Source: Phycisphaerales bacterium
GTDB lineage: Bacteria; Planctomycetota; Phycisphaerae; Phycisphaerales; UBA1924
Assembly (NCBI GenBank): GCA_020831775.1
Contig: JAFIFZ010000015.1
Location: 1-64,000 of the forward strand
Direction of reading: 5' to 3'
DNA: 64,000 nt
This document shows positions 19,266-29,715 of the stretch, in pieces. Position numbers and translations under genes: made by a program. Within the stretch, counting starts at the first letter, position 1; every line of letters begins with the position of its first letter. The notes beneath the pieces are model-generated. The model ran no database searches. It saw nothing but the letters and a program-made list of their open reading frames with translations, and was not told the origin of the DNA.

Positions 19266-19979
19266 TCAGGCGCCGGCAGCGGAGATGCTCTCGCCGAGCA
19301 ACGCTTCGAGGCGTTCGCCGAGTGATTCCCGCACCCGGCCGATCGGGGGCGAGCCTTCGCCGAGCTGCTCCTTCAGGCTCGTGACGGGTCTGCCGTGCAG
19401 CCCGCAGGGGACGATCAGCCCGAAGTGCGAGAGGTCCGGCTCGACATTGAGCGCCAACCCGTGCAGGGTGATCCACCGGCGCACGCGGACGCCCAAGGCG
19501 CAGATCTTCGCGTCAATCGCGTGGGGGCCGCCATGGCCGGGGGGGATCCAGACGCCGGTGGCGCCTTCGTCTCGCTGCGCGGGCAGGCCGAACCCCGCGA
19601 GCGTCTCGATCACCGCCCGCTCCATCAGGCGCATGTGGTCGTGCAGGCGCAGGCCGACGGCCCTGAGGTCGATGATCGGGTAGCAGACGATCTGGCCCGG
19701 ACCGTGGTAAGTGACATCCCCGCCCCGGTCGGTCGCCTCGATCGCGACGCCCGCGGCGGCGAGCGCCTCGGGGCCCGCAAGCACATGGCCCGGGGCGTCG
19801 GCGCGTTTGGTGACCGTGATGACCGGATTGTGCTCGACAAAGAGCAGGCGACCGGGCACAGGCGAGCCCGACTCGCGGGCCGCCAGCACCTCCGCGTGAT
19901 GGCGCAGTTGCTCCCCGTACGCCTCGGCGTAGGACATCCGCCCAAGATCGACGATCGGGATGCGTGGCGGTTCGGGCAT
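19266..19979 (-). CDS. lipB: Octanoyl-[acyl-carrier-protein] transferase LipB
   Basis: LipB transfers octanoate from acyl carrier protein to lipoyl domains of 2-oxoacid dehydrogenases and glycine cleavage H protein, the first step of endogenous lipoate synthesis. Clear signatures: RGGDVTYHGPGQ near residues 85-96, DAKICALGVRVRRW with Lys158, and PCGLHGRPVTSL with catalytic Cys192 (Cys/Lys dyad). 237 aa is typical. The ATG at 19979 gives the usual N-terminus; lpxA starts divergently 58 bp away. lipA is not in the window. Confidence 0.95.
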   Translation of the reverse strand: MPEPPRIPIVDLGRMSYAEAYGEQLRHHAEVLAARESGSPVPGRLLFVEHNPVITVTKRADAPGHVLAGPEALAAAGVAIEATDRGGDVTYHGPGQIVCYPIIDLRAVGLRLHDHMRLMERAVIETLAGFGLPAQRDEGATGVWIPPGHGGPHAIDAKICALGVRVRRWITLHGLALNVEPDLSHFGLIVPCGLHGRPVTSLKEQLGEGSPPIGRVRESLGERLEALLGESISAAGA

Positions 19980-20037
19980 GCGGCCAATGCTATGGACAGT
20001 GCCCCGGCCGCCCTCGCAAAGCCCTACACTGGGCCCC

Positions 20038-20841
20038 ATGGCGGAGGTCCATCCAAGCGCGGTCGTGTCTCGGGAGGCGGAGCTCGCTGCGGATGTCCGC
20101 GTCGGCCCGAACTGTGTTATCGAAGGCCCGGTTCGGCTCGGGCCGGGCGTGCACCTGATCGCGGGCGTGCACCTGTTCGGCAGGGTGTCGATCGGCGAGG
20201 GAACGGTCTGCTACCCCGGGGCCTGCATCGGGTTCCCGCCGCAGGACTTCAAGTTCACTGTGGGGATGCGGAGCGCCGGGGTCGAGGTGGGCGCTGGGTG
20301 CCTGATCCGCGAGCACGCGACGGTGCACGGGGCGAGCAACGACCACACGCCGACAAAGATCGGCAACAAAGTCTTCATGATGGTCAACACGCATGTCGGC
20401 CACGACGCGTCGGTGGGCGACCACTGCGTGCTGGTGAACAACTCGGCGATCGCCGGGCACTGCGTGATCGGCGAGCGTGTGAACTTCGGCGGGGCGGCGA
20501 TCATCCACCAGCACTGCCGCGTCGGACGCCTTGCGATGATCTCGGGCGGCTCGGGCTTCTCGGCCGACTGCCCTCCGTTCATGATCCTCTCGGGGCGGAA
20601 CAACCTCGTGGGGATCAACATCGTTGGCCTGAAGCGCAACGGGTTCTCCGTCGAGGAAATCTCCACGCTCCGCCAGATGTTCCGGAGGCTGTTCCGCCAG
20701 CCCTCTTCGCGCGATCGGTTGCTCGAAGAGCTCGACGCAGGCGCGAAGACCTGTCCCCCGCTCGGCGAGGTGGCCGACTTCGTTCGGGAGAGCAAGCGAG
20801 GCATCTGCCCAGGCTCCGGGCGCAGGCCGCGCAATGTTTGA
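20038..20841 (+). CDS. lpxA: UDP-N-acetylglucosamine O-acyltransferase LpxA
   Basis: Catalyses the first step of lipid A synthesis, acylation of UDP-GlcNAc. 267 aa with left-handed beta-helix hexapeptide repeats throughout the N-terminal two thirds. The catalytic region reads THVGHDASVG with His119 and His122, followed by the C-terminal helical domain (RNNLVGINIVGLKRNGFS). Start ATG 20038. Its presence supports an LPS-bearing outer membrane. Family alternatives such as LpxD are less likely because of the short N-terminus and the GINIVGLKR motif. It is followed closely by a metallo-hydrolase gene. Confidence 0.93.
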   Translation: MAEVHPSAVVSREAELAADVRVGPNCVIEGPVRLGPGVHLIAGVHLFGRVSIGEGTVCYPGACIGFPPQDFKFTVGMRSAGVEVGAGCLIREHATVHGASNDHTPTKIGNKVFMMVNTHVGHDASVGDHCVLVNNSAIAGHCVIGERVNFGGAAIIHQHCRVGRLAMISGGSGFSADCPPFMILSGRNNLVGINIVGLKRNGFSVEEISTLRQMFRRLFRQPSSRDRLLEELDAGAKTCPPLGEVADFVRESKRGICPGSGRRPRNV

Positions 20842-20872
20842 ACCCGGCACGGACGGGGAAGGAACCCCACGC

Positions 20873-21712
20873 ATGCGAACCGCCCAGACACCCCCGCCCG
20901 CCGCGAGACTCTGCGTCCTGGCCAGCGGCTCGCGGGCCAACTGCTCCGTGCTCGAGATCGATGTTGACAGCCGCAGACGCGTCTGCCTGATCGACGCGGG
21001 GCTGAGCCCGGGCAAAACGACCAAGGCGCTCAATGCGATCGGCCTCTCGGTTTCCGAGGTCACCGATGTCTTCGTGACGCACCTGGACATGGACCACTTC
21101 CATTCCGGGTGGGCGCGCCAGCGCCGTTTGCCCGGTGTCCTGCGGCTGCACAAGCGCCATGTCTCACGGGCCGACCGCCTCGGGCTGCTCAGCCAGAAGA
21201 CGCTGCCTTTCGATGACGGGCCGGTCGAGCTCGGGCGTCCGGGCGAGTTGCCGTTCGCCATCATCGAGCCGGTACTGCTCAGCCACGACAGCGACGGGTG
21301 CGCCGCGTTCAGATTCACCTTCCGGGGGGAGCGCTCGCTCGGCTTTGCGACCGATCTGGGGCGGGTGACGCGCAAGCTGACCGACCACCTGGCGGGCGTG
21401 GATGTGCTGGCAATCGAGTCGAACTACTGCCCGGTGATGCAGCGCAACTCGGACCGTCCCGAGTTCCTCAAGCGCCGGATCATGGGCGGGTCGGGGCACC
21501 TCTCCAACCAGGAGGCCGCCGAGGCGGTCGCGCAGATCCGCCCCCGCGAGCATGTCGTCTTTCTGCACCTCTCGCAGCAGTGCAACGACCCGGGCGCCGT
21601 CGCTTCGATGCACGAGGGAGCCGACTACGGGTTCACCATCGCCGAGCAGCACGAACCGACACGCTGGATCGGCGTCGGCGAGCACGCGATGGCGGAGCGG
21701 CTCTTCCCGTGA
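20873..21712 (+). CDS. Metallo-beta-lactamase-fold hydrolase (YycJ-like)
   Basis: 279-aa cytoplasmic protein with a metallo-beta-lactamase fold. The N-terminus LCVLASGSRANCS is typical of the YycJ/WalJ subfamily, and LIDAGLSP follows. The metal motif is THLDMDH, that is HxDxDH rather than the usual HxHxDH; the HxDxDH form is known from ComEC-like members. Further ligand positions are LSHDS and FATDLG. Probably a nuclease or phosphodiesterase; substrate unknown. The start at 20873 has GGGAAGGA upstream; an ATG at 20834 overlapping the lpxA stop is also in frame. The stop overlaps the next gene by GTGA. Confidence 0.78.
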   Translation: MRTAQTPPPAARLCVLASGSRANCSVLEIDVDSRRRVCLIDAGLSPGKTTKALNAIGLSVSEVTDVFVTHLDMDHFHSGWARQRRLPGVLRLHKRHVSRADRLGLLSQKTLPFDDGPVELGRPGELPFAIIEPVLLSHDSDGCAAFRFTFRGERSLGFATDLGRVTRKLTDHLAGVDVLAIESNYCPVMQRNSDRPEFLKRRIMGGSGHLSNQEAAEAVAQIRPREHVVFLHLSQQCNDPGAVASMHEGADYGFTIAEQHEPTRWIGVGEHAMAERLFP

Positions 21713-22548
21713 GCGAGGCCCGCCTGCCCGCGGCAGAGGCGGAGCAGGCCTCGGGCCCGGGCGCGATCCTCAGACGCTTCCTGGGCATGAGGCGGTCGTT
21801 CGTGGTCGATCGTGTCCGGTACCGGGAGCGTCAGGCGACGCCGCTGCGTCGGGCGTTCTCGCCCAGCGGGCCCGGCCACAAGGACTTTGATGTCTTGTTT
21901 CCTTCGGGCGAGAGCATGCGGATCAGGGCCACGCCCTCGCGCCGGTACGCGGACATCGCCGGCGTGCCAGAGCAACGCCACGCCCAGCTCATCGAGAGCC
22001 TGATCGCGCCGGGCATGCGGATCTGCTGCCTGCACTGCAGAACCGGGTGGGTCGGGGCGGTCGCGGCGATCTCCGCCGGACCCTCCGGGGCGGTCTTCGC
22101 CTGCGACCGGGACCACGAATCGATCCGCTACGCCCGACGCCGTTACCCGCTGGAGAACATCGCCTTCGAGATCGGGGGCGAGGAACTGCTGGCGGGCGAG
22201 CTCGACGGGGCCTTCGACGCTGCGATCGCCCTGGGCAACCCCGCAACGGACGCCCCCCGACGCAGCACGCGGGGCGTCGAGGTTGCCGAGCACCCCCTCG
22301 ACGAGCTCTGGAGGGTCGTCCGCCCCGGGGGCTGGGTGCTCTTCCGGGCCGACGGGGCGGCGGGCTCGCTCCTCCTGGCCGACTCCGACCGCCCGCCACC
22401 GCCAGAACTCCTGGGCGAGCCCGGGACCGAGGCTCGTGCCGTGCTCCTCCGCAAGGCCGCCGAGGAGCCCCGCCAGGGCGATCGCGGGGCCCACGGGGCC
22501 GATGATGCGGGAGACAATGAGGACGATCCATCCGCCGGGCGCTGGTGA
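21709..22548 (+). CDS. Methyltransferase-like protein with degenerate SAM motif
   Basis: 279-aa protein starting at a GTG that overlaps the preceding stop. Residues about 100-220 resemble a class I SAM methyltransferase Rossmann fold: a strand with CLHCRTGWVGAVAA in the place of motif I (normally VLDLGCGTG), an acidic strand end (FACDRDHESIRYARRR), and WRVVRPGGWVLFRADG, the typical late motif of small-molecule methyltransferases. The motif I glycines are partly lost, so SAM binding is uncertain. The C-terminal 40 residues are polar and probably disordered. It seems to be part of the lpxA operon. No substrate can be named. Confidence 0.6.
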   Translation: MSEARLPAAEAEQASGPGAILRRFLGMRRSFVVDRVRYRERQATPLRRAFSPSGPGHKDFDVLFPSGESMRIRATPSRRYADIAGVPEQRHAQLIESLIAPGMRICCLHCRTGWVGAVAAISAGPSGAVFACDRDHESIRYARRRYPLENIAFEIGGEELLAGELDGAFDAAIALGNPATDAPRRSTRGVEVAEHPLDELWRVVRPGGWVLFRADGAAGSLLLADSDRPPPPELLGEPGTEARAVLLRKAAEEPRQGDRGAHGADDAGDNEDDPSAGRW

Positions 22549-22616
22549 ACCTTCCTATCGTGCCGATCAGCTTCCGCACGACGCCGAGGCACAGCGAACC
22601 GATTGAAACAGATCCG

Positions 22617-23003
22617 ATGACAAGACCAGCAGCCAAGAGCCCCGAACGAAGCGCAGATATCCGTCGTTTCGCCGAAGAATCGGCCCGACTGCTCAAAGAC
22701 GACAAGTGCGAGGATGTGGTCCTGCTCGATGTCCGGGGCGTCTCGCCGATGACCGACTTCATTCTCATCGGGACGGGCACCAGCGATCGCCAGATGCGAT
22801 CGGCGATGAACCACCTCGAAGAGCTCGCGGCCGAACAGGGCGTGCCCCCCTACCGGCGAGGGACCGACGAGGACGCGATCTGGCTCGTCTGCGATTTCAT
22901 CGACCTGGTCGTCCATCTGTTCGAGCCCAACGCCCGTGCGCACTACGACATCGAGTCGCTCTGGCACGACGCCAAGCCGGTCGCCTGGGAACGGGAAGGC
23001 TGA
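22617..23003 (+). CDS. rsfS: Ribosomal silencing factor RsfS (Iojap)
   Basis: RsfS binds ribosomal protein uL14 and blocks joining of the subunits when nutrients are scarce. The 128-aa sequence shows the family core: DVRGVSPMTDFILIGTGTSDRQMRSA, then DFIDLVVHLFEPNARAHYDIESLW. Start ATG 22617; in-frame GTG 22545 would add an unconserved stretch. aroB begins 5 bp after the stop. Confidence 0.95.
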   Translation: MTRPAAKSPERSADIRRFAEESARLLKDDKCEDVVLLDVRGVSPMTDFILIGTGTSDRQMRSAMNHLEELAAEQGVPPYRRGTDEDAIWLVCDFIDLVVHLFEPNARAHYDIESLWHDAKPVAWEREG

Positions 23004-23008
23004 TCGCC

Positions 23009-24205
23009 GTGCAAGCCGCCGGATCCCAGGGCGCTTCTCCGGGGGCTCGGGCCGTGCTGGTCCGCGCCGGCGGGGCTTCCTACAGCGTGCGTGTTGGCTC
23101 CGGGCTGCTCGGACTGGTCGGGCCGGCCTGCCGTGAGATGTTCGCGGGCTCGCAACGCGCATTCGTGATTGCCGACGCCGGTGTGCCTGGGGCGATCGTC
23201 GACGGCGCGGCAAAGTCGCTGGCCGATGCCGGCTTCGGCGTGGGCCGCACGGCGATCGCGCCGAGCGAGCAAGCCAAGTCGCTGGAAACGCTCGGCGTAT
23301 TGCTGGGCGAGCTGCTCGCTTCGGGCCATGAGCGGAGCGACCCGGTCGTTGCGATCGGGGGCGGGATCGCCGGGGATGTTGCGGGGTTCGCGGCCGCGAG
23401 CTACCGGCGGGGCTGCCCGGTCGTGCAGTGCCCCACCACCCTGCTCTCGATGGTCGACGCGAGCGTCGGGGGCAAGACCGGCGTGAACCTGGTCCACCCC
23501 GGGACGGGACGCCTGCTGAAGAACATGGTCGGCGTGTTCCACCAGCCCTCGCTGGTGCTGGCCGACACCGATGCGCTGGCGTCGCTGCCCGAGCGGGTCT
23601 ACCGCGCCGGGCTCGGCGAGTGCGTCAAGCACGCCCTGCTCTCGGCCCCATTCGGCGACGCGGACCTCCTGGCGTGGACGGAGCGAAACGCGTCGGCGAT
23701 CGCCCGGCGCGAGCCGGCGATCATGCCCGAACTGATCGCCCGCAATGTGGGCGTGAAGGCGGCGGTCGTGGCGACGGACGAGCGCGAAACAGCCTCCAGC
23801 GGCGGGCGCGCCCTCCTCAACCTCGGGCACACCTTCGCCCACGCGATCGAGACGATCGGGCGCCTTTCCCCGACCGGCCGCCCTGAGGATGCGCCGCTCA
23901 TGCACGGCGAGGCGGTGGCGTTGGGGCTGGTCGCTGCGTGCGAGGCGGGGAGCCAACTCGGCCTGACTGCCCCGGGCCTGACCGACCGTGTGCGCACACT
24001 GCTGAAGACCATCGGCCTCCCGACGGGCGTCGCCGGCCTGCCCGATGCGGCGTCGATTCTGGAGGACATGCGCGCCGACAAGAAGGCCCGCGGCGGGAAG
24101 CTCCGCATCGTCGTGCCCACCACCACCGGCGCGTGCGCGACGGCGGACGCCCCCCCGGAAGCGGCCCTGATCCGGGGGCTGTCGGCGATCGGGCTGCGGT
24201 CATAA
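23009..24205 (+). CDS. aroB: 3-dehydroquinate synthase
   Basis: Second enzyme of the shikimate pathway: cyclises DAHP to 3-dehydroquinate using NAD and a divalent metal. Seen: GGGIAGDVAGFAAASYRRG (NAD-binding glycine region), PTTLLSMVDASVGGKTGVN (substrate loop), metal ligands in GECVKHALL, NLGHTFAHAIE and HGEAVALGL. 398 aa; the N-terminus is slightly longer than usual. The start is GTG 23009, directly after rsfS, so the two are probably co-transcribed. Confidence 0.95.
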   Translation: MQAAGSQGASPGARAVLVRAGGASYSVRVGSGLLGLVGPACREMFAGSQRAFVIADAGVPGAIVDGAAKSLADAGFGVGRTAIAPSEQAKSLETLGVLLGELLASGHERSDPVVAIGGGIAGDVAGFAAASYRRGCPVVQCPTTLLSMVDASVGGKTGVNLVHPGTGRLLKNMVGVFHQPSLVLADTDALASLPERVYRAGLGECVKHALLSAPFGDADLLAWTERNASAIARREPAIMPELIARNVGVKAAVVATDERETASSGGRALLNLGHTFAHAIETIGRLSPTGRPEDAPLMHGEAVALGLVAACEAGSQLGLTAPGLTDRVRTLLKTIGLPTGVAGLPDAASILEDMRADKKARGGKLRIVVPTTTGACATADAPPEAALIRGLSAIGLRS

Positions 24206-24409: not shown

Positions 24410-25816
24410 GTGCGGACGATTGCGATCATCAACCAGAAGGGCGGTTGCGGCAAGACCACGACCGCCATCAGCCTCGCGGGGATCTTCGCCCGATTAGGGG
24501 CGCGGACGCTCCTGGTCGATGTCGATCCCCAATCGCACTGCGCCGCGGGGCTGGCGATTCCCGAGCAGCGGATCGACCTGGACATCGGCGACGCGATGCT
24601 CGCCGACCCGGAGAAGTTTGACGAGGAGCGACTGCTCTGGCGCGTGACTCGGAACCTTGATCTTGCGCCGAGCCGCACGCGGATCGCGGGGCTCGAAGCC
24701 TCGCGGGGCGGGCTGGCGGACGCGGAGGACAAGGAGCTGCGGCTTTCGCGCGTGCTGGAAAGATTGGCCCCCAGGTACGATGTCTGCCTGATCGACTGCT
24801 CGCCCTCGATCGGCCTGCTGGCGTACAACGCGATCAGCGCCGCCGACGCGGCGCTCATCCCCGTCGAGACGAGTTTCTTCAGCCTGCAGGGCGCGACGCG
24901 TCAGGTGTCGGCGATCCGTTCGCTGGCCAAGCGGATGGAGAGCCGCATCACGACCTGGATCCTGCCGACAATCCATGATCCCTCCAGCCCGCTCGCGAAG
25001 GACCTGCTGTCGGAGCTGCGCAAACGGTTCGGTCAACGGGTTGCTCCTGTGACGGTGCGTCGCGACGAGGCGTTGCGTGAGTCGGTCTCGTTCGGGCAGC
25101 CGATCATCGACTACGCCCCCGCCTCTGTCGGGGCGACGGACTACCGGTCGCTGGCGCTCTGGCTGGCGGATGTGCTGAAGATTTCGATCGACCGTGCGGC
25201 GGTCGAGGCCGCGCCGGAGCCGACGCAGGCGCCGGTCCGGGCTGCGCCGCCCGAGCCTGCCGAGGCGTCTGTGAGCGGGGAGGCGCTGGAACGGATGGAG
25301 ACGAAGCCGAACGGCGCGGGGCTGAGCCGCGCCGAGGATCTGACGCGTCGCGCCCAGGCGCTGCAGCGTCGTCTGCAGGGCATCGGCACACCTGTCCGCA
25401 TCGCAGAGGACGAGGGCGACGGGGCTCGCGTGGGCGGGCGTCCGTTGAGCGACACGCTTCGGCGCCTGTACGGCGCTCGCGCCACCGCCTCGGGCGTGCT
25501 GTTCGTGCAGCCCGCGACGATCGGCGAGCGTGTGTGCGTGGCCGGCGGCTTCAACGGCTGGTCCGACACCGACGCCCCGATGAGGCTGAACGAAGAGATG
25601 GGCGTGTTCGAGCTGTGCCTGACACTCCCGGCGGGCAGGCACGAGTACCGGCTGGTTGTTGACGGGCGATGGGGCCCGGACAAGTACAACCCGCTGACGG
25701 CGAACAACCCGTTCGGCGAGCCCAACAGCGTTGTGGTCGTGCATGAGCGTCCCGTCCCGGCGGTCTTGAAGCGACCCTCGGGATCTCTGTGCGTGGCTGA
25801 GGAGCAGCGACGATGA
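24410..25816 (+). CDS. ParA-family ATPase fused to a glycogen-binding (AMPK/CBM48-type) domain
   Basis: 468 aa. The N-terminal 250 residues are a ParA/Soj-type ATPase: deviant Walker A KGGCGKTTT at 10-18, DVDPQ switch, Walker B-like strand VCLIDCSPS near 125-133 and PVETSFFSLQG. Such ATPases form dynamic patterns on nucleoid or membrane to position DNA or cellular cargo. After an Ala/Pro-rich linker (about 250-350), residues about 360-446 form a carbohydrate-binding module like that of AMP-kinase beta subunits: AGGFNGW (Trp), HEYRLVVDGRW (Trp) and NPFGEPNSVVVV (Asn), the residues that contact glycogen in that family. GTG start with GGAGGG at 24398-24403. The stop overlaps the next gene by ATGA. 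No ParB gene adjoins. Confidence 0.85.
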   Translation: MRTIAIINQKGGCGKTTTAISLAGIFARLGARTLLVDVDPQSHCAAGLAIPEQRIDLDIGDAMLADPEKFDEERLLWRVTRNLDLAPSRTRIAGLEASRGGLADAEDKELRLSRVLERLAPRYDVCLIDCSPSIGLLAYNAISAADAALIPVETSFFSLQGATRQVSAIRSLAKRMESRITTWILPTIHDPSSPLAKDLLSELRKRFGQRVAPVTVRRDEALRESVSFGQPIIDYAPASVGATDYRSLALWLADVLKISIDRAAVEAAPEPTQAPVRAAPPEPAEASVSGEALERMETKPNGAGLSRAEDLTRRAQALQRRLQGIGTPVRIAEDEGDGARVGGRPLSDTLRRLYGARATASGVLFVQPATIGERVCVAGGFNGWSDTDAPMRLNEEMGVFELCLTLPAGRHEYRLVVDGRWGPDKYNPLTANNPFGEPNSVVVVHERPVPAVLKRPSGSLCVAEEQRR

Positions 25817-27096
25817 GCGAAGCGCCCCACCTGTCGTTCCGCCCGGCGGAGCCGGACGAAACCCCGTTGACCCCCACCGCTCCGATCGGTCGGATCGAGG
25901 AGCCCGACGACGGGGAGTACGACGCGCTGGCGGATCTGTTCCTCGGCGATCGCCCGAAAACGCGGGCGGTGACGCCGCCGATGCCGGCGATGACCGCTCG
26001 CGGCCCGAGCGCCAGGGCGAGGCTCGAAGCGGTGGTGCTCGGCAATCTGCCGGTGCTCGCCGGGGCGTGGCTGCGCCAGTACGCTGATGCGCGCGCGAGA
26101 GTTTGCGGCGGGCCGGCGGCGCTGGTGCGTTGCCAGCCGGGCTCGGTCAGTGTCGAACTCGTCGGCCCTGGCGCTGCCGGCATTGATGCGCGTGCGGACG
26201 GGCTTGAGGACGCGCTGAGGATTGCCGCGGGGTGCGACGCGATCGTGCTGCGGCTTGAAGAAACACAGGCGGCGTCTGCGCCCGCGATGGAGCGTCTCGA
26301 CGCGGTGACGCTGCTGACGGGCGCTGATGATGCGGCGCTGGTCTCGGGGTATCGCACGCTCAAGGGCCTGGCGGGCGTCTTGGGCGAGAGCGCCACGGGG
26401 CTGCGGGTCGCGTGGATGGGTGTGAACGACGAACGGGCGTCGGCCGCATCGGCGCGGCTTTCGGGGGCCTGCGGAACCTTCCTCGGGCGCGAACTGGAAA
26501 CCTCGGCGGTCTGCCCGCGCGTCGACGCGGTCGAGGCTGTCACGCTCTACCGGGGCTCGCAGGATTTCGATACCGAGCGGCTGCTCTCGATCCTGAACGA
26601 GCGCCCGGCCCCCCGCCAGAGCGGTCAGACTGCGCAAACGGCGCGGATCGCGGACGACGCAGAAACCGAAGCGGCGTCGGCCGCAGAGCCGCTGCGTGCG
26701 GAGGTGAAGCCCGTGCATCGCTCGCCGGATCCCTTCGTGCTGCTGGAAGGGATCGAGCGGCTGCGTTTCTCGTGCCCGGACGCGCCGGGCGTTGCGCTCG
26801 GAGCCGACAGCGAGGGACGGCTGGTGCTCGTCGCCGAGGCGATGGGCGATCAATCGATCGGCGAGTCGGTGCGTGCGCTCTCGGCGGCTTCGGTGTGGTC
26901 GGTCAAGCAGTCGGCGTTGATCCGGCTCGCGTCGTCGCGCGTCACTGCGCTCGATGGGGCGAGCCCGCCCCGGCGCGTGCTGATGACCGATCGGCCCCGC
27001 GAGGCGCGTCCCTTGCTCGACGGCGAGGTCTCGGTGTATCTTCTGAGCCCGGCCCGACCCGCGGCGGATTCGTCGTGGGCGTGCGTCGAGCTCTGA
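25813..27096 (+). CDS. ParA/MinD-like protein lacking a P-loop (partner of ParA-CBM48)
   Basis: 427 aa, no family recognised with certainty. The N-terminal 70 residues are acidic and Pro-rich (DDGEYDALADLFLGD). Residues about 75-260 follow the order of elements of a MinD/FlhG fold: a strand-loop-helix where the P-loop should be (VVLGNLPVLAGAWLRQYA, without the GKT/S signature), a Walker B-like strand DAIVLRL, LLTGADDAALVSGYRTLK, then RVAWMGVND and FLGRELE. It thus looks like a nucleotide-independent ParA homologue. A further alpha/beta region of about 130 residues ends the protein. It starts inside the ParA-CBM48 stop (ATGA), so the two are made together and probably interact. Confidence 0.6.
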   Translation: MSEAPHLSFRPAEPDETPLTPTAPIGRIEEPDDGEYDALADLFLGDRPKTRAVTPPMPAMTARGPSARARLEAVVLGNLPVLAGAWLRQYADARARVCGGPAALVRCQPGSVSVELVGPGAAGIDARADGLEDALRIAAGCDAIVLRLEETQAASAPAMERLDAVTLLTGADDAALVSGYRTLKGLAGVLGESATGLRVAWMGVNDERASAASARLSGACGTFLGRELETSAVCPRVDAVEAVTLYRGSQDFDTERLLSILNERPAPRQSGQTAQTARIADDAETEAASAAEPLRAEVKPVHRSPDPFVLLEGIERLRFSCPDAPGVALGADSEGRLVLVAEAMGDQSIGESVRALSAASVWSVKQSALIRLASSRVTALDGASPPRRVLMTDRPREARPLLDGEVSVYLLSPARPAADSSWACVEL

Positions 27097-27202
27097 ACGA
27101 ACCGGTGTGATCGCGATCTGAGCGGTTGTTCGGTCGGTCGGGTTCGGCGGCCGCGTGTGTGTCGTTCTGTGTTCGATCGCCCTGAACCTCCCGGAACCCT
27201 TT

Positions 27203-28069
27203 ATGACCTCTCTGCCGTTGCGTTTGAGCCTCGTGCTCGTGGCTGTGCTATTTGTCGCCAGTCCCTCGATTGCTGAAGCGGATTCGGCGATGGAGGCGAG
27301 GCGTTCGATGCTCGACCGTCCGGGGTCGCTCGTGATCGCCGGGGGGAGCGGGCTTGGCGACGAGATCTTCGGGGCGTTCCGTGATCTTGCGGGCTTCGGC
27401 CCGGCGTCGGTGGTGGTGATCCCGACGGCCAGCGATCGGGCGGACCGCGAGGATTACGACCAGACCCTGATCCGCCAGTGGCGGGCGCGCGGGTTCGAGT
27501 GGGTGACGGTGCTGCACACCCGCGACAGGGAAGAGGCCGACACGGAGGCATTCGCTTCGGCGATCGCACGGACCGACGCCGTCTGGTTCGGGGGCGGGCA
27601 GCAGTCGAGGCTCGCGCAGTCGTACCTGGGCACGAAGGTCGAGGCGGAACTGCACAAGCTGCTGGAGCGGGGCGGCGTGGTCGGCGGGAGCTCCGCGGGT
27701 GCCGCGATCCAATCGGGCGTGATGATCACCGGGGGCAACCCCGAAGCGCGCGTGGGCGAGGGGATCGACCTCTTGCGCGGGTGCGTGGTCGATCAGCATT
27801 TCTCGGAGCGCAATCGCCAGCCGAGGCTCCGCGGCGTGATCGAGGCCAGGCCGGGGTTGCTGGGCATCGGGATCGACGAACGGACGGCGCTGGTCGTCCG
27901 CGTGCGCGATGGGCGGGTCGTCGGCGAGGTGGTCGGGGCCGCGGGGGTGCACCTGATGCTCGCCGATGGCTCGGGCGAAGTGCGCGAGACGAGCCTGGAT
28001 CCCGGCGATCGGCTCGATGTCGTGGCGGGCGAGCGGATCGAAGCCGCGGCGCCGGCCTCGGCCGACTGA
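27203..28069 (+). CDS. Exported cyanophycinase-like peptidase (S51)
   Basis: 288-aa protein with a signal peptide (LRLSLVLVAVLFVASPSIAEA). The mature part is an S51 serine hydrolase of the cyanophycinase branch: VIAGGSG at the N-terminus, VWFGGGQQSRL, nucleophile elbow GGSSAGAA, DQHFSERNRQPRL and GIGIDERTAL. Cyanophycinases cut cyanophycin (multi-L-arginyl-poly-aspartate) to beta-Asp-Arg dipeptides; exported members act on external polymer or related isopeptides. No cyanophycin synthetase is in the window. ATG 27203 precedes the signal peptide. It converges on the next gene with only 2 bp between stops. Confidence 0.85.
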   Translation: MTSLPLRLSLVLVAVLFVASPSIAEADSAMEARRSMLDRPGSLVIAGGSGLGDEIFGAFRDLAGFGPASVVVIPTASDRADREDYDQTLIRQWRARGFEWVTVLHTRDREEADTEAFASAIARTDAVWFGGGQQSRLAQSYLGTKVEAELHKLLERGGVVGGSSAGAAIQSGVMITGGNPEARVGEGIDLLRGCVVDQHFSERNRQPRLRGVIEARPGLLGIGIDERTALVVRVRDGRVVGEVVGAAGVHLMLADGSGEVRETSLDPGDRLDVVAGERIEAAAPASAD

Positions 28070-28071
28070 GG

Positions 28072-29715
28072 TCAGCGGCCGGAGCGATCGCGGGGGCCGA
28101 GTCGTCTTCGGAGTTGGTCTTCGTAGAGCGATTGGGGGACGAGCGTTGCGCCTTGGCCGATCCCTTCGACGAAGTCTTCGGGGCTTGTGTCGCGGGCTGG
28201 GTGCGGGCCCGAGCCCGGGACGAGGACGGGGCGTGTGCGCACGCCGGTCGCCTCGCCCTGGGTGCCGATGACATACCCCCAGCCGAACTGGCGGCTGTCG
28301 ACGACGACGCCCGCCCTGGGGTGGGCCGCCTCGCCGATGGTGTTCCAGAAGACCGATTGCGTGGTTGGGTGGCCGTGGACGATGGTGCCCCACGGGCGGT
28401 AGCGGGCTTCGAGCCAGTCGCGGTTGACGGTGACGGCGTCGAAGAGGTTGGCGGGGCTGAGGTGCATGTGGAAGTCGCTGGCGAGCATCGCGTCCTCGGC
28501 GCGGCTGCGGTGGACGACATTGCCGCTGGTCCAGAGGGATTTGAAGCTGAAGTTGTGTCGGGCGTGGGTGACACGGGTGTCGGTGACGAGGCAGTCGCTG
28601 CCGGAGAAGGTGATGCCGTAGCCGTTGCCGCCGGCACCTTTGTACTGCGGCTTCTGAACGACGCAGCCGGTGACGGTGATGTTGCGCGACATGTGCAAGA
28701 GGAAGCCGTTGGAGACCATGTGGATGTCGTTCTCGTTGGTCTCGAGGCGGGCGGTGTGGATGTCGCGGATCCAACCGTTGACGGTGTGGTAGAAGGTGAT
28801 GAGATGGGCGCCGTGAACTTCGTGGGCGGCCGTGCCTTCTTCGCGGAAGTCGTTGGCGGCGAAGCCTTCGCCCGGGTGCTCGACCATGCCGATGGAGAAC
28901 GATTCGAGGCCGACCTGCTCGAGGTGCGGGGCGGTGCGCTGCAGGCGAGCGTTGTCGCGGGTGGGGAGCGGGTAGCGCGGGGGGATGTCGATCTCGATGT
29001 TCAGACCGTCGCTGCTGACGCGGGCGACGCGCCGGTAGAAGGCGACAGCGCCCATGCGGGGATTCCAGAGGCCTGTCATGTCGTGGTCGGCGATGAAGTC
29101 GTCGGTTGCATCGGCGAGGAGGACGATCCAGTCGCCGGCTTCGACGCCCGCGGACTTGGCGAGGCGGACGCGGGTTGCGCGGTTTTCGGCGTCGACAGCG
29201 AGCGGGACGGGCTCCCCCGCTGCGCGGAGCCAGACGCGGGAGGGTGTGTTTGGTGGCGCGACGCGGATGACATCGCGCTGACGCATGTTCGGATCGGTGT
29301 TGATGATGGTGGTCGCCTCGGGTCCGGCGCCTCGGAGGACGACGCCGCTGCGCGTGATGTGCAGCGCGGCCCGCTCGCCCTCTGGCGGTGCGACGCGGAA
29401 GGTCCCGGGCCCGAGGAGAACGACGCCCCCGCCATTCTCGCCGACACGGTCGAGCGCCTCTTGGATGCGGGCGGTGTCGTCGCCTTCGTCGTCGGTGGCT
29501 TGCAGCGTGACGGTCGCGGGCGAATCAGCGGGCGGGAGCGGGCGTTGGCCCGACTCGTAGCCGGCGTAGGAGAAGTCGTGCAGGAAGCGGCCCTCGGCGT
29601 CGGTGTGCTGCGGCGTCCAGTTGATCGGGTAGACCTCGCTGCGCCAGGGCGAGGCGTTTGCGAACGCGACGGGAACACAGAAAAACACAACGAGCAGTTT
29701 GGTGTGTCTTGGCAT
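28072..29715 (-). CDS. Exported right-handed beta-helix protein (pectate-lyase superfamily)
   Basis: 547 aa with a signal peptide (LLVVFFCVPVAFANA). The stretch DDTARIQEALDRVGENGGGVVLLGPGTFRV is the common start of pectate-lyase-type beta-helix proteins; later repeats such as NITVTGCVVQKP, GITFSGSDCLVTDTRVTHARHNFSFKSLW form helix turns. This fold is used by polysaccharide lyases and glycosidases (pectin, alginate and others), so an envelope or extracellular role in polysaccharide breakdown is likely; the substrate cannot be told. Asp/His/Arg residues in HMHLSP and DSRQFGWGY might be catalytic but I cannot assign them. Confidence 0.75.
   Translation of the reverse strand: MPRHTKLLVVFFCVPVAFANASPWRSEVYPINWTPQHTDAEGRFLHDFSYAGYESGQRPLPPADSPATVTLQATDDEGDDTARIQEALDRVGENGGGVVLLGPGTFRVAPPEGERAALHITRSGVVLRGAGPEATTIINTDPNMRQRDVIRVAPPNTPSRVWLRAAGEPVPLAVDAENRATRVRLAKSAGVEAGDWIVLLADATDDFIADHDMTGLWNPRMGAVAFYRRVARVSSDGLNIEIDIPPRYPLPTRDNARLQRTAPHLEQVGLESFSIGMVEHPGEGFAANDFREEGTAAHEVHGAHLITFYHTVNGWIRDIHTARLETNENDIHMVSNGFLLHMSRNITVTGCVVQKPQYKGAGGNGYGITFSGSDCLVTDTRVTHARHNFSFKSLWTSGNVVHRSRAEDAMLASDFHMHLSPANLFDAVTVNRDWLEARYRPWGTIVHGHPTTQSVFWNTIGEAAHPRAGVVVDSRQFGWGYVIGTQGEATGVRTRPVLVPGSGPHPARDTSPEDFVEGIGQGATLVPQSLYEDQLRRRLGPRDRSGR

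Follow-up and report, generated by a model that had tools for sequence, protein, structure and literature searches.

A ParA-type ATPase with an AMPK/CBM48-type module and an FlhG-like neighbor in the Phycisphaerae

Introduction

ATPases of the ParA/MinD type are responsible for placing chromosomes, carboxysomes, chemotaxis clusters, flagella, and the divisome. As set out in the part of PMC10241942 used here, the known systems are composed of the ATPase, a matrix, and a partner protein that links the ATPase to its cargo.

The glycogen-binding domain of AMP-kinase (AMPK) beta contacts its ligand through a small set of residues. In the portion of PMC9788615 drawn on here, W100 and W133 stack on glucose, K126 and N150 form hydrogen bonds, and L146 and T148 are further contacts. 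In the plant protein PTST, starch binding is lost when the two corresponding tryptophans are replaced by alanine, according to the consulted part of PMC4339375.

Here, we describe a locus of a Phycisphaerales bacterium (contig JAFIFZ010000015.1) in which a ParA-type ATPase and an AMPK/CBM48-type module share one reading frame. The window is the whole stretch of 64,000 nucleotides that was analyzed. The initial annotation, made from the sequence alone, knew of no described system with this fusion. Judged by titles, the open literature on ParA with glycogen or a carbohydrate-binding module (CBM) agrees: none of the titles listed was about such a fusion, most subscription papers being outside the scope of the search.

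Domain architecture of the ParA-CBM protein

The ParA-CBM protein (468 aa) is encoded on the forward strand at 24410-25816 by a single open frame with a GTG start at 24410 and a stop at 25816. The motifs KGGCGKTTT, FNGW, VVDGRW, and NPFGEPN, from which the fusion had been proposed, are all found in the translation, and the joining of a ParA ATPase to a CBM in one frame is borne out by Pfam, PDB sequence matches, and AlphaFold2. In searches of the PDB with the full protein, ParA/Soj chains match residues ~2-250 and AMPK beta chains match residues ~372-445.

Residues 1-255 (24410-25174, forward strand) form the ParA-type deviant Walker A ATPase domain, assigned from its AAA_31 match, the PDB ParA/Soj matches, and conserved ATPase residues. 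In Pfam, residues 2-180 match AAA_31 (E 4e-40) and related ParA families. K10, K15, T16, D37, D39, and D129 are found in all 133 of the ParA domains aligned, so that both the Walker A motif with its signature lysine (KGGxGKTT; K10 and K15) and the Walker A' and B aspartates (D37, D39, and D129) are present in 133/133. Four DNA-binding lysine positions of Helicobacter pylori ParA were mapped by eye; two are basic here (K197 and R218) and two are non-basic (A221 and A238), which makes nucleoid binding by the ParA-CBM protein unsure.

The ATPase domain is followed by a variable linker (25175-25462, forward strand) with a predicted helix at residues 307-324 (RAEDLTRRAQALQRRLQG), recognized by DSSP of the model and from the alignment. 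Several homologues that have lost the CBM end, by eye, in a similar stretch.

The AMPK1_CBM/CBM48 module spans residues 352-447 (25463-25750, forward strand) and is supported by Pfam, the model, PDB matches, and the contact residues W384, R414, W421, and N439. AMPK1_CBM (PF16561) is matched by residues 372-447 with 46 bits (cut-off 26.8), and CBM_48 likewise exceeds its cut-off (24.6 bits vs 22.4). When the C-terminal piece alone was compared with the PDB, AMPK beta was best (1.3e-8), followed by plant glucan phosphatases. This is the single AMPK1_CBM match in the window's genome.

The AlphaFold2 model, built with 28 aligned relatives, has a mean pLDDT of 84. In keeping with the CBM48 fold suggested for the C-terminal region, nine strands are predicted within residues 355-444, there is no helix longer than three residues beyond residue 351, and pLDDT is 94-98 in ten-residue blocks from 351 to 440. 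The module fold rests on the sequence matches and these predicted strands, because the best 50 Foldseek rows for the model are all ParA-type, the first nine being ParA/Soj with 33-37% identity.

Gene neighborhood

The block upstream of the ParA gene (19266-24205) is composed of lipB, an LpxA-like acyltransferase, a metallo-hydrolase, a methyltransferase-like gene, RsfS, and aroB. This lipB-to-aroB block is partly conserved ahead of the ParA gene in near relatives. Ten loci of distant families have neighbors in common only between pairs of loci. The neighborhood was therefore dropped as a clue to the cargo, the upstream block being uninformative on this point. The scan of flanking genes turned up no flagellar, cellulose, or exopolysaccharide synthesis gene. 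On the other side of the locus, the next gene after the partner gene described below encodes a Peptidase S51 family protein (27155-28069), and a pectate-lyase-like protein lies on the reverse strand at 28072-29715 (PF12708, 27.9 vs a cut-off of 27).

Distribution, age, and loss of the fusion

The fusion is widespread in the Phycisphaerae, as the initial annotation had suggested checking. A set of 133 distinct ParA domains was gathered from the class, and the module is in frame in 114 of them and absent from the frame in 19; exact copies were removed and near copies kept, and the choice of loci was partly aimed at short frames, so these proportions are no unbiased sample. Two of the 19 are set aside, one reaching a contig end (L165) and one having the module in a neighboring frame (L175), leaving 17 losses: nine in family f2, seven in f1, and one in f5.

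All 200 relatives searched at 0.001 have a match, Soj-like paralogues included, and many of the matches listed extend to the module end. In a class-wide draw, 265/298 genomes have a match at 1e-30, and many families have matches over the full length. In a draw from the phylum, 15/246 genomes match at 1e-50, and all 15 are within Phycisphaerae. Since many families of the class have the fusion, in genomes that are independent of one another, it is neither chance nor an assembly error.

A quick tree was rooted on two Soj rows, both long-branched. Outside the clade of the window's order, the module is present with its site intact in all rows, and module presence and absence require seven changes on the tree. 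On these sequences, an old origin of the fusion within the class, followed by several losses, is probable, because the intact module occurs in all lineages outside that clade and several changes are needed.

The simplest account of the locus would be a plain second partition ParA with a functionless tail. The window's genome does encode a separate Soj-like ParA paralogue, with 36% identity to the ParA-CBM protein over residues 2-288. This account is nevertheless highly improbable. The ParA-CBM group is split from the two Soj outgroup rows with an SH-aLRT of 97, on long branches, and no ParB gene was found among the flanking genes scanned. None of the best 5000 plasmid records and none of 127 phage records covers 80% of the ParA-CBM protein, and the tail is conserved across the class. 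When the module alone was compared with plasmids, the annotated matches among those listed were GlgB.

The putative sugar site of the module

In the PDB alignment, AMPK W100, W133, K126, and N150 correspond to W384, W421, R414, and N439 of the ParA-CBM protein, and L146 and T148 correspond to F435 and E437. Over the 114 module copies, position 384 is occupied by W in 112, position 414 by R or K in 111, and position 421 by W in 102; position 439 is N in 90 copies and D in 9. The positions of AMPK L146 and T148 are mostly occupied by F or Y and by E, respectively. W384, R/K414, and W421 are kept jointly in 102/114 copies. The glycogen-contact residues that had been picked out in the window alone are thus conserved across the class. 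This conservation argues for a sugar site that has been kept.

Contact residues are decayed in 12 of the 114 copies, and these copies keep the domain nonetheless. Such persistence, together with the rarity of canonical glycogen genes discussed below, would fit a protein-binding Ig-like domain that has lost sugar binding. We consider this quite unlikely, since W384, R414, and W421 rank 7th, 13th, and 16th in conservation among 100 columns, and all of the 12 decayed copies except L012 fall in a single family, f2. Rather, the glucan site looks to be retained across the class, as far as residue identity tells, and to be decaying in one family.

The partner gene

A second gene, here called the partner gene, encodes 427 aa at 25813-27096 on the forward strand and shares four bases with the ParA stop. 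It has no match in Pfam or NCBIfam. In the first 55 loci, among which some genomes are counted twice, the ParA gene is always followed by a homologue. With an iterated profile, a partner was found within 2.5 kb of ParA in 107/128 distinct loci that have at least 1 kb of room.

The predicted partner protein is composed of an N-terminal motif, an FlhG/FleN-like domain that has no P-loop (residues 68-241; 26014-26535, forward strand; profile and fold match), and a C-terminal alpha/beta domain (residues 307-427; 26731-27093, forward strand; model and alignment). The model has a mean pLDDT of 81. A fold search with it returned FlhG first (E 1.9e-5, probability 1.00). Compared with the FlhG structure, it gives Z 11.8 with an rmsd of 3.2 A over 156 residues; FleN gives Z 9.6 and the first other family 8.7, the comparison covering mainly residues 52-242. 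A profile of 23 partner members matched FlhG (1.9e-6) and FleN (about 4e-6) in the PDB, the next match being at 0.21, and it matched the FlhG-type protein of a relative with a probability of 93 (3.9e-7). That FlhG-type protein has SGKGGVGKT where the partner has LGNLPVLAGAW. A GxxxxGK[ST] pattern occurs anywhere in the frame in 1/109 partners (L149). By this evidence from profiles and models, the partner is a pseudo-ATPase of FlhG kinship, because it matches FlhG in profile and fold and carries LGNLPVLAGAW in place of the P-loop. In one clade of CBM-less loci (L049, L050, L052, and L055), the partner's GHLPV segment, which stands where the P-loop would be, is altered as well; the CBM-less L056 keeps LPV.

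The N-terminal motif, YDALADLFLGD (25918-25950, forward strand), was identified from the alignment and the model and lies in a variable region of low confidence. In distant families, it takes the form MADIARLFLD or LSEISHLFLS. A regular expression for LADLFLG-type motifs matched 106/109 partners, about eight of which look false by eye. Three FlhG-type proteins of relatives were translated; MDQAYQLRQLM or LDQASRLRALM lies ahead of the domain in two and is absent from the third. The partner motif occupies a place like that of this FlhG DQAxxLR helix, and our guess is that it descends from that element.

Partner proteins of ParA/MinD ATPases follow a rule of a positively charged, disordered N-terminus, according to the part of PMC10241942 consulted. 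The N-terminus here is of low model confidence and mostly acidic instead: its charge is -4 in the window, and among 106 partners it is negative in 78, zero in 10, and positive in 18, with starts guessed. The pseudo-FlhG gene may therefore not be a partner in the sense of this rule.

No partner was found nearby at 21/128 loci, so the partner is not universal. The CBM site is intact at 20 of these 21 loci. Eighteen are in families f8, f17, f19, f20, f23, and f24, and the rest are in f1, f5, and f6. A profile search of 20 of the 21 genomes gave no match in 8 and weak matches (about 1e-6 to 1e-11) in 11, and in genome G157 a partner-like frame lies ~8 kb away from ParA. Both positive controls (n=2) matched strongly. 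The four weak matches examined are all ParA/MinD-family (MinD/FlhG-type) ATPases; they neighbor an FlhF-like GTPase in three cases (two above the FlhF cut-off and one below) and a sigma-70 factor in one.

The partner is kept in 16 of the 17 module losses and at all 12 of the decayed copies. Read from these sequences, the module is dispensable, because it is lost in 17 cases and decayed in 12 while the ATPase motifs and the partner stay. Together with the partner-less loci, the losses show that ParA with the module exists without the partner and ParA with the partner exists without the module. Module decay is seen almost only where the partner is present, a pattern that kinship alone could cause. 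The linker motif was also considered as a marker of the partner gene. A regular expression found it at 67/107 partner-bearing loci vs 3/21 others, but the expression is not strict and the linker helix is of a different type at some distant loci with the partner, so this marker was dropped.

Alpha-glucan genes

Glycogen genes were examined as a tracer of the module (GlgA, GlgB, phosphorylase, and GH13 in the class genomes, and GH57 in 37 genomes), and this approach was abandoned with a weak excess of GlgB as its only yield. GlgA (TIGR02095) is above its cut-off in 1/298 class genomes (G129), with two more at 278-279 bits vs 328; in control genomes, the same search is above cut-off in 7/14. GlgB (TIGR01515) is above its cut-off in 37/298. 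In the window's genome, GlgA is not above cut-off and GlgB has no match at 1e-80. GlgB occurs in 32/197 genomes with the ParA group (at 1e-50) vs 5/101 without it (odds ratio 3.7, Fisher p 0.005), a test made from hand-copied lists with an arbitrary 1e-50 line and with kinship ignored.

At 1e-10, 252/298 class genomes have a phosphorylase match; the copy in the window's genome is divergent (1.4e-30). Phosphorylase is found also in families f9, f15, and f22, where the ParA-CBM group is mostly missing. Four genomes with an intact site have no phosphorylase candidate (G044, G014, G145, and G147), and GH57 is present in G014. GH57 is above cut-off in 35/37 relatives, the window's genome included, three of them weakly. 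In the window's genome (L203, 6664-15290), GH57 stands not among glycogen genes but amid HglS-like, LptG/LptF-like, and ArnT-like genes, all of which are below their NCBIfam cut-offs. By inspection, GlgA, phosphorylase, GH13, and GH57 have no clear link with module presence or site integrity. Absences are trusted only where no candidate of any kind was found, because PF00128 at 1e-10 misses the GlgB-bearing genomes G025, G084, and G109 and divergent phosphorylases may escape PF00343 at 1e-10. Decay of the site in f2 does not follow phosphorylase loss, the decayed f2 copies of G156, G160, G164, G166, and G170 having a phosphorylase match.

Two further arrangements were seen. A GlgA-like domain (114-138 bits, below cut-off) occurs in frames of 911-1200 aa in 18 listed genomes, including G400, G394, G309, and G413; these frames may encode a different, fused type of glycogen synthase. 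In five genomes (G249, G011, G017, G380, and G413), GlgB and a GH13 frame of ~1100 aa, TreS-like by its size, are no more than about 6 kb apart, an arrangement that suggests a GlgE-type route to alpha-glucan.

Gene content makes some alpha-glucan chemistry likely in many of these cells. Glycogen made by GlgA and GlgB is, on the same grounds, not required for the fusion, because both genes are rare in the class and neither passes its cut-off in the window's genome. The initial annotation had proposed a glycan, such as glycogen granules or an exopolysaccharide machine, as cargo or anchor. The residues at the glucan-contact positions are kept, in favor of that idea, but the counts of GlgA and GlgB give glycogen granules weak support.

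Partitioning of glycogen granules would have ParA space or share out glycogen particles through the module, much as McdA does with carboxysomes. The conserved contact residues, the wide occurrence of GH57 and phosphorylase, and the excess of GlgB alongside the ParA group all fit such a role. We hold it to be unlikely, given the scarcity of GlgA and GlgB, the four intact-site genomes that have no phosphorylase candidate, and the families that have phosphorylase and mostly not ParA. Moreover, in the known systems as described in the consulted part of PMC10241942, the link to the cargo is the partner and not the ATPase.

Proposed mechanism

The reading that we favor, with a probability of roughly 0.45, is a two-gene positioning switch of the ParA type, with the pseudo-FlhG protein as adaptor and a ParA that is anchored to, or responsive to, glucan. 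ATP would drive ParA dimerization on a matrix, either the nucleoid or the partner. The pseudo-FlhG protein would replace ParB or McdB as the adaptor, holding the cargo or setting its release; this role is weakened by an N-terminus that does not have the usual positive charge. The module would bind cytoplasmic alpha-glucan or maltodextrin and thereby anchor the switch or make it responsive to carbohydrate, as in AMP-kinase. The core would be the ATPase and the adaptor, and the module would be an old accessory that most lineages retain and some have lost.

A more specific form of this switch is doubtful. In it, catalytic ParA and a dead FlhG relative would make up an asymmetric ATPase pair, docked by the LADLFLG motif derived from the FlhG-activating helix and anchored or gated by alpha-glucan through the AMPK-type module.

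The pair may instead be a carbohydrate sensor, in which bound alpha-glucan or maltodextrin would alter the ATPase cycle or the contact between ParA and the partner, and the pair would regulate division, the cell cycle, or the envelope, much as glycogen acts on AMP-kinase. In the PDB, the module matches AMPK beta subunits best by sequence, repeated module loss with the core kept fits a regulatory add-on, and FleN, kin of the partner, is named an antiactivator in the PDB. We regard a sensor as possible, if somewhat unlikely.

If the two-gene switch is correct, a ParA with a polysaccharide-binding module, widespread in a class that has been little studied, would tie positioning to the state or storage of carbohydrate. 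The FlhG-derived pseudo-ATPase would then be a new sort of adaptor.

Comparison with known systems

The fusion of ParA to a CBM, with a pseudo-FlhG neighbor, has the deviant Walker A fold and a second gene in the operon in common with ParA/Soj and McdA. It differs from them in its AMPK/CBM48-type tail and in the FlhG-derived pseudo-ATPase neighbor with a mostly acidic N-terminus. BcsQ, the ParA of cellulose synthesis, is the best NCBIfam match of the ParA-CBM protein, but the TIGR03371 cut-off is not reached (105.5 vs 157.85 bits).

The glycogen-binding domain of AMPK beta belongs to the same family as the module and shares the contact residues W, K/R, W, and N. In contrast to AMPK beta, the module is fused to ParA, and most copies have F or Y in place of L146 and E in place of T148. 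The partner resembles FlhG/FleN in profile and in fold, and its short N-terminal helix ahead of the domain may correspond to the DQAxxLR element of two of the three FlhG-type proteins translated. Unlike FlhG/FleN, it has no P-loop, carries an extra C-terminal domain, and is encoded in an operon with ParA after aroB.
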